The notes beneath the pieces are model-generated. The model did not search any database. It was given only the letters and a program-made list of their open reading frames with translations, and was not told the DNA's origin. A stretch of DNA of 46,767 nucleotides. It comes from Oscillatoriales cyanobacterium. GTDB lineage: Bacteria > Cyanobacteriota > Cyanobacteriia > Cyanobacteriales > Laspinemataceae. Made by a program: the position numbers and the translations under genes. Of this stretch, positions 31,177 through 42,629 are shown piece after piece. The stretch is taken from contig JAABRM010000057.1 in NCBI GenBank assembly GCA_011390955.1, positions 1-46,767 on the forward strand, written 5' to 3'. Each line of letters starts with the position of its first letter. Positions within the stretch are counted from its first letter, which is position 1.

Positions 31177-32733
31177 ATGAGCCCACAACAAACTCGGATT
31201 TCTGCCAAGAAATCCTCATCGATACCAATGGGGCCGAAATATACCCCAGCGCCCGTGCTTCAACCCAAGGCCACCAAAAAACCCGATCGACAACTTCCAG
31301 AGTGGCAACCGGAAGGCGGTGGCATGGTCAGCCCCCTGCAAAGATTACTCGACAGTAATGCCGTCCAAGCCAAATTGACCATCGGCGAACCCAACGATAA
31401 ATACGAGCAAGAAGCGGATACCGTGGCCCAAGATGTGGTGCAGCGGCTGCATTCTCCCCTGTCTGAAGCGCCACCGGAAACGGAAGTGCAACGGGAAACC
31501 GAAGCCGGGAAAGATAAATTGCAGATGAAACCGATTCTGCAAAGAACTCATGCAGTGGGTGGTGAACCGGCATCAGCGGATTTAGAAGGGGCGATTAATC
31601 GGGCAAAAGGCGGCGGTCAGCCCTTGGAAGCGGGGTTGCAACGGTCTATGAGTCAGGCAATGGGCGCTGATTTTTCCGGGGTGCGGGTGCATACGGATGG
31701 TCATGCGGATGAGTTAAATCAGTCGATTCAAGCCAAGGCTTTTACCACCGGGCAGGATGTATTTTTTAAGCAGGGCGAATATCAACCAGGGAGTCGCGGG
31801 GGGCAGGAGTTGATTGCCCATGAGTTGACCCATGTGGTGCAGCAAGGTGGGGCGGCAAGCATACCAGCTAACGTCCAACGTAATGCAGTTAAAGAAGCTT
31901 CAAATATCACAATTAATAGTCAAACTCAAATTAGCAAGATGCCAGAAGATTCAGCATTGCTAATTCAGCGCGATATTGAAACAAATGGTGGTAAGTGGAA
32001 AACTGATTCTTATAAAACTGTTTCTGATGGAGCAGAAATTATCCTAGATTTTGCTCCCAATGACAATGTAAAAGCAACGAAAATTGGCTTAATCCAAAAA
32101 TCTTTAAAAGTAGAGAAAGGTATAAATTACGATATTTCAGCACGCAGCGATTACGAATCAAAGAAATTTCAAATGCCAACGCAAAAACGAAAAGCTCAGA
32201 GATCTGATGGTCAAAGTCACATCGATCGTGACATTAGAATGAATAATCCAATTTATGGGGCTCCCAATTTAGCTCAGGGAAAAGATTTATCAGCTACTCC
32301 TACAGGTAAATTGGATATGAGCGATAAAGCTCAACAAAAAGGAACTGCTCAAAATTATCAGCTTGGCTGGCGATATAAATCGATGTTAGGGTTAAAAACA
32401 AACAAGCGCAGCGCTAAGTTATATGACAAACCTAATCTGCCTGGGGCAACTAATGCAGTTGCCAAAGATAGCAGCAAGAAATCAAAAATGACTTTTGAAA
32501 CTACAGCCGTCTGTATTCAAGGCAAACAAAAAGGAATGTATTATGGATCTGTAGGATGGGGTTTTACTATTGATGATGCATCGGGTGCTACTCTTCTACC
32601 ATTAAGGAAATTAACTGACGGTGTACCAACAAAGGAAATGATTGGTGTTATGAAAAACTGGAATGAAGGTGAATTTAATCAAGGTGAATTGAATCCACAA
32701 ATACCCATACCTACAACAGATGAAGAGAAGTAG
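31177..32733 (+). CDS. DUF4157 (eCIS core domain) protein, candidate injection-system cargo
   Basis: This 518-residue protein has a proline-rich N-terminus. A DUF4157 domain lies at about 145-225, ending in the HELTHVVQQGG metallopeptidase-like motif (H215, E216, H219), preceded by MGADFSGVRVHTDGHADELN and FTTGQDVFFKQGEY. DUF4157 marks proteins linked to extracellular contractile injection systems and is often fused to toxin or cargo regions. Residues 230-518 are not recognised: a lysine-rich region that includes GLIQKSLKVEKGINYD, MYYGSVGWGFTIDD and GVPTKEMIGVMKNW. The acidic C-terminal end (PTTDEEK) is intact. Function of the cargo part unknown. Confidence 0.85.
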   Translation: MSPQQTRISAKKSSSIPMGPKYTPAPVLQPKATKKPDRQLPEWQPEGGGMVSPLQRLLDSNAVQAKLTIGEPNDKYEQEADTVAQDVVQRLHSPLSEAPPETEVQRETEAGKDKLQMKPILQRTHAVGGEPASADLEGAINRAKGGGQPLEAGLQRSMSQAMGADFSGVRVHTDGHADELNQSIQAKAFTTGQDVFFKQGEYQPGSRGGQELIAHELTHVVQQGGAASIPANVQRNAVKEASNITINSQTQISKMPEDSALLIQRDIETNGGKWKTDSYKTVSDGAEIILDFAPNDNVKATKIGLIQKSLKVEKGINYDISARSDYESKKFQMPTQKRKAQRSDGQSHIDRDIRMNNPIYGAPNLAQGKDLSATPTGKLDMSDKAQQKGTAQNYQLGWRYKSMLGLKTNKRSAKLYDKPNLPGATNAVAKDSSKKSKMTFETTAVCIQGKQKGMYYGSVGWGFTIDDASGATLLPLRKLTDGVPTKEMIGVMKNWNEGEFNQGELNPQIPIPTTDEEK

Positions 32734-40038: not shown

Positions 40039-40251
40039 TTATCCATAGCGATCCAAATAATCTTGGATAATGCGATCGAGCATCTCGGCGGCAGTCAATC
40101 CTTTTTCTTTCGCTATTTTTTTGATAACTTGAATTTGTTTTGCCGAAATTTTAATCGGAGCAAAATATTCAGGAAAAGCCCAGGGGCATTGATTACACTC
40201 CAGGGTACAACCTCGACAAGCGGTACTTTTATGGATGCCTGGGTCATGCAA
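40039..40251 (-). CDS. Small four-cysteine protein with RHH-like C-terminus
   Basis: The 70-residue product begins MHDPGIHKSTACRGCTLECN; cysteines 12, 15, 19 and 22 form a C-x2-C-x3-C-x2-C cluster that could hold zinc or an Fe-S cluster. Residues 35-68 (ISAKQIQVIKKIAKEKGLTA then AEMLDRIIQDYL) resemble a ribbon-helix-helix DNA-binding fold. It is divergent from the DNA methyltransferase with a 40-bp inverted repeat between them, suggesting a repressor/control protein. The family was not recognised; function is inferred from position. Confidence 0.65.
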   Translation of the reverse strand: MHDPGIHKSTACRGCTLECNQCPWAFPEYFAPIKISAKQIQVIKKIAKEKGLTAAEMLDRIIQDYLDRYG

Positions 40252-40331: not shown

Positions 40332-41240
40332 ATGAATCAAGTGGTAGAAGTAAAGAACCATAAAAAGATGCGCGTTGCATCATTTTTTACCGGAATTGGC
40401 GGATTTGATCTAGGCATGGAAAGAGCAGGAATGGAAGTAGTCTTTCAATGCGAAATAGATCGGTTTTGTCAACAAATTTTAAAACGTCACTGGCCTCAAG
40501 TACCAATTTATGAAGACATCAGAACCCTCACATCTTCAACTATCCCTACCGCTGAATTATGGTGTGCCGGATGGCCTTGTCAAGACCTCAGTCACGCCAA
40601 CACAAACCGTCAAGGCTTGGCCGGAGAAAGAAGCGGACTCTTCTATAAATTTATGGAACTTGTTGGAGAAGTTCACCCAGCGTGGTTGGTCATGGAAAAT
40701 GTGCCTGGTTTACTCTCCGCAGAGCAAGGAACCGCTCTTGAGGCAGTTATCGACACCCTGGAAGCGCACGGGTATTTGGGGGGATGGCTATCGTGTAACG
40801 CTCTCCATACGGGCTTACCTCACAACCGAGATCGAGTGTTCTTTATTGCCAGTTTTGGATCAAAAAGTGTCTATCAAATCTTTACTGACAGCAGCGAATT
40901 GTCTGGGGATTCTCCGACGGGAAAATCGAGCGGGACGGAAACTCGATCGCCCATTTGTCAAAGCCCTGTCAGAGACTATCCGCTTGTGGTACAACGTCGC
41001 GGCGGCTTCGGGTACACCCTGGCAAGAAATATCTGCCCCACGTTACGCGCCCAAACTGGAAAACATCAAGGAGGTCATTCAGACCGACCAATACTCTGTG
41101 GCGAGAAACTTGACCTGGACCGAGTGGGAAAGGCTGATGGGGTTTCCCCCAGGTTGGACGGTCGTCGAGGGAGAGTCCTTGGTAACGCAGTTGTCCCCGC
41201 GATCGCCGAATGGATCGGCAGAAAAATCCTAGAAATATAG
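40332..41240 (+). CDS. C5-cytosine DNA methyltransferase (solitary, phage-like)
   Basis: This 302-residue enzyme transfers a methyl group from SAM to cytosine C5. Motif I is FFTGIGGFDLGMERAG (18-33), motif IV catalytic Cys83 is in GWPCQDLS, motif VI is MENVPG (121-126), motif VIII is NRDRVFFI and motif X is GNAVVPAIAEWIG near the C-terminus. The target-recognition part is short (about 190-265). No cognate endonuclease is adjacent. The canonical motif IX is weak in this frame, while a matching sequence occurs in the overlapping +1 frame. The stop codon TAG (41238-41240) lies inside the end of a MITE-like element. Confidence 0.93.
   Translation: MNQVVEVKNHKKMRVASFFTGIGGFDLGMERAGMEVVFQCEIDRFCQQILKRHWPQVPIYEDIRTLTSSTIPTAELWCAGWPCQDLSHANTNRQGLAGERSGLFYKFMELVGEVHPAWLVMENVPGLLSAEQGTALEAVIDTLEAHGYLGGWLSCNALHTGLPHNRDRVFFIASFGSKSVYQIFTDSSELSGDSPTGKSSGTETRSPICQSPVRDYPLVVQRRGGFGYTLARNICPTLRAQTGKHQGGHSDRPILCGEKLDLDRVGKADGVSPRLDGRRGRVLGNAVVPAIAEWIGRKILEI
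40510..41232 (+). CDS. Overlapping ORF inside the methyltransferase gene (+1 frame)
   Basis: This 240-codon ATG-started frame lies fully inside the methyltransferase gene. Its sequence does not look random: STPWKRTGIWGDGYR, SLLTAANCLGILRRENRAGR, KALSETIRLWYNVAAASGTP and a C-terminal NLTWTEWERLMGFPPGWT that resembles methyltransferase motif IX. From memory, similar ORFs with MKTSEPSP-type starts accompany many phage cytosine methyltransferases, including the GILRR..RGK.L segment. No independent Shine-Dalgarno sequence is evident before 40510. It may be a second overprinted protein or the C-terminal part of a methyltransferase read after a frame change. Expression is unproven. Confidence 0.5.
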   Translation: MKTSEPSHLQLSLPLNYGVPDGLVKTSVTPTQTVKAWPEKEADSSINLWNLLEKFTQRGWSWKMCLVYSPQSKEPLLRQLSTPWKRTGIWGDGYRVTLSIRAYLTTEIECSLLPVLDQKVSIKSLLTAANCLGILRRENRAGRKLDRPFVKALSETIRLWYNVAAASGTPWQEISAPRYAPKLENIKEVIQTDQYSVARNLTWTEWERLMGFPPGWTVVEGESLVTQLSPRSPNGSAEKS

Positions 41241-42002: not shown

Positions 42003-42629
42003 GAATAGAATAGGCTAAGTAGGTGAACATAATTAATTGCACTTTTCGTTCCCCACCGTAAATCTTTGGATTCCCGCCTTCGCGGGAATGACAGAAATAG
42101 CTATAATATTCGTAGGTTGGGTTGAGGGTGTAGGGTGTGGGGTGTGGGGCCGCCATCGGGGAAGAGAGATGCATAGAAGAGAGAAAAAAGAATTTTCCTA
42201 TGCATCCTCTATCCTATGCATCCTCAGTGTGGAATTTTGCCCACCCGACAATATAAATACTTTGGATTCCCGTCGGAGTTTACCCCCGCGAAGGCCGCCA
42301 TCGGCGGGAATGACAGAAATAGCTATAATATGGAATTTTGCCCAACCTACAATATAAATACTTTGGATTCCCGCCTTCGCGGGAATGACAGAAATAGCTA
42401 TAATATGGAATTTTGCCCACCCTACAATATAAATAATCGCTAAAAACACAAAAAACACAAAGGAAACCTCTCTTTGTGTCCTCTGTGTCTTTGTGGTAAA
42501 TTTTATCGGTGACATTTCTCATCGTTTCCCGGTTCATACCTACCAGAAAAATAAAGCGCGATCGAAGCCTTCTCAGAAGCAAAAAATATTGCTAAAATAG
42601 ATCGATACGAGAAAAAACGGAGGTAAACA
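42003..42629. repeat. Repeat-only interval with half MITE A and three palindrome units
   Basis: 42016-42094 is the left half of family A (TAAGTAGGTGAACATAATTA up to the palindrome). 42220-42430 holds tandem units of about 75-100 bp, each with GGAATTTTGCCCACC, CAATATAAATACTTTGGATT, the dRS3-like palindrome and GACAGAAATAGCTATAATAT. The first unit carries the 26-bp-expanded palindrome (42264-42316), identical over 53 bp to 2088-2140. A CTTTGTGTCC/TTTGTGGT repeat follows at 42446-42497. Confidence 0.9.

Follow-up and report, generated by a model that had tools for sequence, protein, structure and literature searches.

A putative two-chain C5-cytosine methyltransferase encoded in overlapping reading frames of a cyanobacterium, and its relatives in viruses

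Known split methyltransferases and the cyanobacterial locus

In ordinary C5-cytosine methyltransferases, the bridge that follows motif VIII and motif IX are placed between motifs VIII and X of a single chain. In M.EcoHK31I (YGGCCR), the small chain is coded in another frame inside the large-chain gene. In the excerpted text of PMC3404938, motifs I-VIII and X of this enzyme are located on one chain and motif IX on the other, and the naturally split M.AquI, also treated in an excerpt of PMC5944983, is formed by two chains with both IX and X on the small one.

Among phages, Streptococcus phage MM1 1998 (DQ113772) has annotated overlapping alpha and beta subunits with beta in the +1 frame, and Paenibacillus phage Bloom has nested genes 56/57, both annotated as cytosine methyltransferase, with IX in the +1 frame and X in alpha; in Mycobacterium phage Catdawg and Arthrobacter phage ArV1, a second overlapping ORF holds IX and X and looks M.AquI-like. 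The E. coli plasmid pCE10C, considered as a possible source of an EcoHK31I relative, is annotated with one dcm gene of 380 codons including the stop. No survey of overlapping-frame methyltransferases was recognised in the literature searched, outside which most subscription journals fall; the excerpts of two reviews on overlapping genes and frameshifting (PMC8227390, PMC5009743) gave no phage methyltransferase case, and those of PMC8541194 and PMC3556154 nothing bearing on split methyltransferases.

The DNA analysed here, called the window, is a whole stretch of 46,767 nucleotides from an Oscillatoriales cyanobacterium. Its relevant features are the following:

40039..40251, - strand: ORF of 70 aa, C-terminal remnant of an HNH restriction-enzyme-like gene, HNH core absent
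40332..41240, + strand: alpha, C5-cytosine methyltransferase large chain of 302 aa with motifs I-VIII and X, without IX
40383..40415, + strand: alpha motif I, FFTGIGGFDLG, with columns mostly invariant among relatives
40510..41232, + strand: beta, +1-frame ORF nested in alpha, ATG start, 240 aa plus stop
40569..40592, + strand: alpha motif IV, GWPCQDLS (sequence and alignment)
40695..40703, + strand: alpha motif VI, ENV (sequence and alignment)
40815..40850, + strand: alpha motif VIII, LPHNRDRVFFIA (sequence and alignment)
40840..40989, + strand: beta residues 111-160, bridge/GILRR module, over which alpha is relaxed and beta constrained
40986..41081, + strand: alpha residues 219-250, PTLRAQTG region, strongly conserved (alignment)
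41098..41169, + strand: beta motif IX, VARNLTWTEWERLMGFPPGWTVVE (alignment and profile match)
41166..41219, + strand: alpha motif X, RGRVLGNAVVPAIAEWIG (sequence and alignment)

Beta ends 8 bases short of the end of alpha. Motif IV (GWPCQDLS) contains the presumed catalytic Cys, and alpha residues 219-250 are a probable part of the target recognition region. Alpha residues 13-174 match PF00145 only over profile positions 1-161 of 324, the match ending after motif VIII, and the match of beta to profile positions 184-300 is weak (E 0.0034, 17.3 bits) and falls below the curated cut-off of 22 bits. In comparison with a profile built from 18 single-chain cyanobacterial enzymes, taken from the 30 control loci described below, alpha 11-175 aligns with positions 2-164 at 99.9% probability and beta 197-220, in which LTWTEWERLMGFPPGWT is located, with positions 257-280 (motif IX region) at 59.6%, the matches of beta to single-chain enzymes being weak overall (2.6-59.6%). 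Since the matches of alpha and beta cover complementary parts of the profile, with X again in alpha, the two frames look like parts of one enzyme; motifs I-X are not found together in the window alpha, as they are in single-chain PF00145 enzymes. The coordinates and the profile matches confirm the description, given in an earlier note on this DNA, of a 240-codon +1 ORF within the methyltransferase that carries motif IX. The own genome contains 15 PF00145 matches, some of which are pieces of one gene, and one beta.

By its description, M.EcoHK31I is resembled by the window enzyme in the presence of I-VIII and X on alpha and of IX on a small chain and not on the large one, and in the coding of the small chain in another frame within the large-chain gene; the window beta also has the GILRR module. 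In its testable features, the window enzyme agrees with the M.EcoHK31I kind. M.AquI (cyanobacterial, CYCGRG) shares with it the two chains, whereas X is on the large chain in the window; MM1 1998 shares the overlapping subunits and the +1 frame of beta, but its alpha has an in-frame IX and its beta (142 codons with the stop) ends before IX; in Bloom, unlike in the window, no GILRR motif was seen in beta. The earlier note had called the arrangement unexplained, a word that no longer fits given the M.EcoHK31I precedent (excerpt of PMC3404938) and the annotated alpha and beta of MM1 1998.

Elsewhere in the window, interspersed direct repeats of 46-57 nt (GCGGGAATGACAGAAATAGCTATAATAT...), in three copies per family with 61-100% identity, are found at 42064-42435, downstream of the methyltransferase, and the protein encoded at 31177-32733 (+) contains an eCIS core domain (PF13699, E 7.3e-33).

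Conservation of both frames in cyanobacteria

The longest +1 stretch in the window alpha is 249 codons and the longest +2 stretch 74; in 10,000 synonymous shuffles of the alpha codons, the +1 stretch has a mean of 82 and a 95th percentile of 129, and none reaches 249. The 30 control genes, namely the 30 cyanobacterial PF00145 loci requested from a search of 59 genomes, have a median longest +1 stretch of 44 codons versus a shuffle mean of ~60, and the stretch is unusually long (observed length reached by at most 15 of 300 shuffles) in two of them.

Relatives of beta were collected by one scan of GTDB species genomes, the reach of which is limited to close relatives; it returned 19 loci, every title cyanobacterial, 18 of them intact over the compared region. 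In the remaining one (L019), the matches of alpha and beta are each split in two pieces lying in different frames, so both frames are broken. The arrangement is rare in the phylum, since 4 of 386 genomes match, including the own genome and with two of the four matching weakly. These two, G373 and G173 (loci L023 and L024), had been considered unrelated on a one-strand reading, which was overturned by matches of the beta profiles on the opposite strand (in G173 again with E 3.8e-15 and one stop inside the match), and for this reason they are counted as probable relatives.

The conservation set is composed of the window and the 18 intact relatives, aligned without gaps over the 239-codon overlap. 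In all 19 sequences, the +1 frame has 0 stops across the overlap, while the +2 frame has 9-16 stops each; 5' of the overlap, 18 of the 19 have a +1 frame interrupted by stops. Across the overlap, pairwise identity averages 0.798 for alpha, 0.784 for +1 and 0.670 for +2, and upstream of it 0.853 for alpha and 0.479 for +1. Shuffling of columns with the same consensus residue introduces ~6 stops per sequence and reaches the observed +1 identity in 0 of 500 trials, and per-sequence synonymous shuffling gives ~5 stops (0 of 200). The ratio of observed to expected differences, calculated on 171 sequence pairs that are not independent of descent, is 0.20 for alpha-silent/beta-changing versus 0.68 for doubly silent differences, 0.18 for alpha-changing/beta-silent ones and 0.069 for those changing both. 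Alpha-silent changes are suppressed where beta would change, and both frames are therefore selected as proteins.

The constraint is distributed unevenly along the gene. The alpha-silent/beta-changing rate goes from ~0.55 to 0.22 at the beta start, is 0.46 over beta 26-49 and drops to 0.03-0.07 in the GILRR module and again in motif IX, with the alpha-changing/beta-silent rate rising there to 0.24-0.52; in two stretches alpha is conserved less than beta. Over beta 1-48 the constraint is weak (0.338 vs 0.622; alpha-only part 0.554 vs 0.724). The start codon of beta is ATG in 18 of 19 sequences and ACG in L017, which has an ATG four codons upstream. The possibility raised in the earlier note that two proteins are made from one stretch is supported by the stop-free +1 frame in 19 of 19 and by the rates of 0.20 and 0.68; the two outcomes that it had listed as contrary, homologues with a +1 frame full of stops and synonymous variation that ignores frame two, did not occur, the former being contradicted by 0 stops over the overlap in all 19 and the latter by frame-one silent variation that respects frame two.

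Viral relatives and the composition of beta

Neither the window beta nor the 19-sequence alignment, used as query, found relatives in viral contigs; viral relatives of beta surfaced once viral loci were collected by alpha. Two types were obtained from IMG/VR: the first is represented by 80 loci kept of at least 600 and chosen by alpha only (alignment A4, phage alphas with the window alpha), the second by 80 further loci (L118-L197; alignment A5, alphas mostly with in-frame IX). There may be redundancy among the loci, and a number of contigs were picked up by two scans, e.g., L179/L307, L158/L319 and L172/L342.

With motif patterns that were composed after the sequences had been seen, motif IX is found in the +1 frame of 75 of the 80 first-type loci (in 74 within the longest +1 stretch, which measures 113-380 codons) and in neither frame in 4; in L092, the main frame holds IX together with the catalytic motifs in one ORF, due to either a natural fusion or a sequencing frameshift. 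The statement of the earlier note that overlapping ORFs accompany many phage methyltransferases is thus largely right. In the second type, 59 of 80 loci show the IX pattern in the main frame, or 58 of 80 once the spurious hit in L124 is removed, and the +1 stretch (139-315 codons, 145-185 in 65/80) stops at alpha residues 200-235 in 75/80. A GILRR-like pattern is contained in the +1 stretch of 78/80 second-type loci and of 1/80 first-type loci, and the second-type +1 ORF ends in KYYLSxKACxGILRRAExRGKxLP. The contig L124 has the architecture of the window, with I-VIII and X in alpha and a nested beta of 313 codons that contains the bridge, GILRR and IX.

The observed +1 length is reached by at most 15 of 300 shuffles in 72/80 loci of the first type and 54/80 of the second; the same test for the +2 length gives 1/80 and 2/80. 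In a third viral scan with the single-chain profile, which is mixed, the +1 length is unusual in 39/80 loci, 2 among L266-L295 and 37 among L296-L345, a split chosen afterwards. In the overlap, alpha-silent/beta-changing differences have a rate of 0.525 versus 0.965 for doubly silent ones in the first type (2545 pairs) and of 0.424 versus 0.959 in the second (1675 pairs, 78 sequences). The two rates are about equal before the overlap (0.686/0.698 and 0.673/0.631, respectively) and reversed after it (0.682/0.481 and 0.664/0.555), and the +2 control frame in the overlap shows a smaller effect too (0.531/0.667 and 0.432/0.678). Of the differences that change alpha, those that also change beta are not clearly rarer in the overlap (0.442 vs 0.370; 0.273 vs 0.299) and are more frequent before it (0.363 vs 0.253; 0.357 vs 0.234). 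To judge from these substitution patterns, the betas of both viral types are probably selected as proteins.

Motif placement varies further in 19 complete second-type loci lacking the IX pattern in either frame, which were examined beyond the alpha end. In 13 of them (L128, L130, L131, L133, L140, L151, L152, L156, L162, L166, L170, L175 and L193), IX and then an X-like GN are found in a further open frame past the end of alpha, the opening of which overlaps alpha in 12; among the other six, four have an X-like motif ending alpha itself and two are at contig ends. This suggests that some viral enzymes may be spread over three ORFs, i.e., alpha, a nested beta and a downstream ORF with IX and X. 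A second-type beta match inside an ORF also holding PCQ-like and ENV-like motifs was found in none of 157 cases.

In searches of phage and plasmid records, the window beta matched one phage record and no plasmid, while alpha matched 1443 phage records; a first-type phage beta yielded 114 phage and 7 plasmid records and a second-type beta 321 phage records, part of which may be an alpha shadow in both cases. In fact, the second-type profile, with its N-terminal ~100 positions, picks up stop-ridden stretches of other cyanobacterial genomes as well. Three of these stretches, checked by coordinates, are ordinary methyltransferase genes read in the +1 frame; most such matches stop by profile position ~110, before the GILRR part. 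The N-terminal half of beta is therefore partly a shadow of the conserved alpha.

Beta has counterparts in both viral types: window beta 15-155 aligns with the second-type beta including the GILRR module (hhalign 99.4%) and window beta 15-238 with the first-type beta including motif IX (98.5%). The post-VIII bridge pattern (LxDILExxVxxKYYLS-like) was located in the main frame for 9 of 16 bacterial-type viral enzymes (those of the 30 in L266-L295 with motif VIII found) and for 2 of 17 cyanobacterial controls (of 30, likewise), and never in their +1 frame; the second viral type has it in the main frame in 0/80 and in the +1 frame in 65/80, and in L296-L345 it is in the main frame in 5 and in the +1 frame in 31 of 46 testable. 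In neither frame is the pattern detected in the first type (43/80 testable) and in the window family (12/19 testable). The bridge element aligns collinearly with single-chain enzymes in a weak profile match (3.9%). This distribution suggests that beta may be a displaced segment of the canonical enzyme. AlphaFold2 models the window beta confidently over residues 121-190 only (block means 74-88; overall 50.6) and one second-type beta over residues 121-159 with block means of 91-98 pLDDT; Foldseek comparison of both models with the PDB gave no match at E <= 0.001, and sequence searches of solved structures gave no meaningful match for the window beta and none for the second-type profile.

The proposed enzyme, its alternatives and its genomic context

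The reading that we hold with high confidence is that one C5-methyltransferase is made as two chains from the same DNA, as in the M.EcoHK31I kind. Alpha (frame 0) would form the SAM-binding and catalytic domain with motifs I-VIII and would contribute motif X, whereas beta (frame +1) would start at its own internal ATG and supply the helical bridge module and motif IX; the two chains would then assemble into an active enzyme, as reported for M.EcoHK31I. Both ORFs, the selection on both frames, the collinear way in which their motifs complete each other and the linkage to an HNH gene in relatives are shown by the sequences, and from there we infer that beta is translated, that the chains assemble and that the enzyme is active on a target site. 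An assembly of two chains, one of the options of the earlier note, finds support in the complementary motifs and in the dual-frame selection, as far as sequences can tell.

The same note had also proposed ribosomal frameshifting, by which the two frames would be joined into a single chain with motifs I-X. The collinearity of the motifs across the frames agrees with it, but two shifts are required, +1 after VIII and a return before X, and the beta frame is open and conserved far upstream of a useful shift point, with its own ATG in 18/19. Moreover, a Shine-Dalgarno-like sequence precedes the first viral beta start in 32/80 (first type) and 43/80 (second type) loci, versus 11% and 16% of later +1 start codons, and precedes the viral alpha starts, placed by match, in 24/80 for each type; in the window, no such sequence was seen before the beta ATG nor before alpha. 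Programmed frameshifting is thus the less supported of the options in the note and is judged very improbable, internal initiation being favoured on this pattern of starts. Another explanation is that beta is untranslated and that its frame is open as a by-product of the residues and codons used by alpha, or through recent descent. The N-terminal similarity of beta, partly an echo of alpha given the matches of the second-type profile to stop-ridden +1 frames, and the non-independence of the counted pairs are in its favour; against it, alpha-preserving shuffles fail to produce the open frame, alpha-silent changes avoid beta-changing sites in the overlap and not, or less, before it in both cyanobacterial and viral sequences, beta is the better conserved of the two proteins in two stretches and 28/30 cellular controls lack an unusual +1 stretch. 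A by-product is for these reasons largely refuted and hardly credible.

Beta could also be translated as a separate protein, e.g., a regulator or a counter-defence factor, and not as a subunit. The second-type alpha mostly keeps IX in frame (58/80) and a conserved beta persists anyway, with residues 121-159 of one such beta confidently predicted at block means of 91-98 pLDDT. However, beta holds motif IX, which is in the main frame in single-chain enzymes, in the window and in the first viral type, the second-type beta holds the post-VIII bridge (+1 in 65/80 vs main frame in 0/80) and the second overlapping ORF of Catdawg and ArV1 holds IX and X, so that the reading of beta as a separate protein has only a slight chance of being correct. 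The two-chain enzyme appears to go beyond the EcoHK31I kind in that its beta carries the GILRR module as well, that both frames are tightly selected across cyanobacteria, and that viral relatives are widespread and graded in their motif placement.

The genomic context of the cyanobacterial enzymes suggests restriction-modification. A divergent gene of ~235-267 residues is located upstream of alpha in the loci of 14 of the 18 relatives (the L011 copy is incomplete) and is adjoined in 13 by a small gene of ~80 residues; the three long flanking proteins tested all match HNH (PF01844) and PADLOC REase_II models (best E 8.6e-16), and the single small protein examined gave hits to HTH_3 and control-protein models (XRE-type). 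L002 and L006 are without the flanking gene, their contigs having only ~120-220 bases before alpha, and no homologue of the HNH-type gene was seen in L003 and L017. In the relatives, the methylase probably belongs to a Type II restriction-modification system in which the endonuclease is of the HNH kind. The 70-aa ORF of the window aligns with the C-terminus, past the HNH core, in 13 of 14 flanking homologues, and this C-terminal remnant is all that is found in the window of a linked restriction endonuclease; the enzyme is thus probably an orphan methylase in which dual coding has been retained, the endonuclease gene would have decayed and the methylase probably acts alone. A second C5-methyltransferase gene is located beside the alpha/beta gene in L003 (762-1817) and L008 (738-1778), the latter matching PF00145 across nearly its full length.

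To our knowledge, long same-strand nested genes with both products selected are rare in cellular genomes. We lean slightly towards a wider view in which overlapping frames encode the two or three chains of C5-methyltransferases throughout a large clade carried mostly by phages, with bridge, IX and X dealt differently by lineage and with a beta that would be essential even where alpha holds the classical motifs; the cyanobacterial restriction-modification family of the window would be a domesticated or exchanged member of this clade. Of 20 annotated phage regions, 15 carry, by our reading, an annotation for just one of the two frames. Should beta be a required subunit, cloning the annotated ORF would yield an incomplete enzyme for many phage methyltransferases listed as single genes, and predictions of their activity and specificity would fail. 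Natural split enzymes are used as scaffolds for targeted methylation (excerpt of PMC3439449), and the graded motif placement described here offers a natural series for asking why enzymes split across frames.
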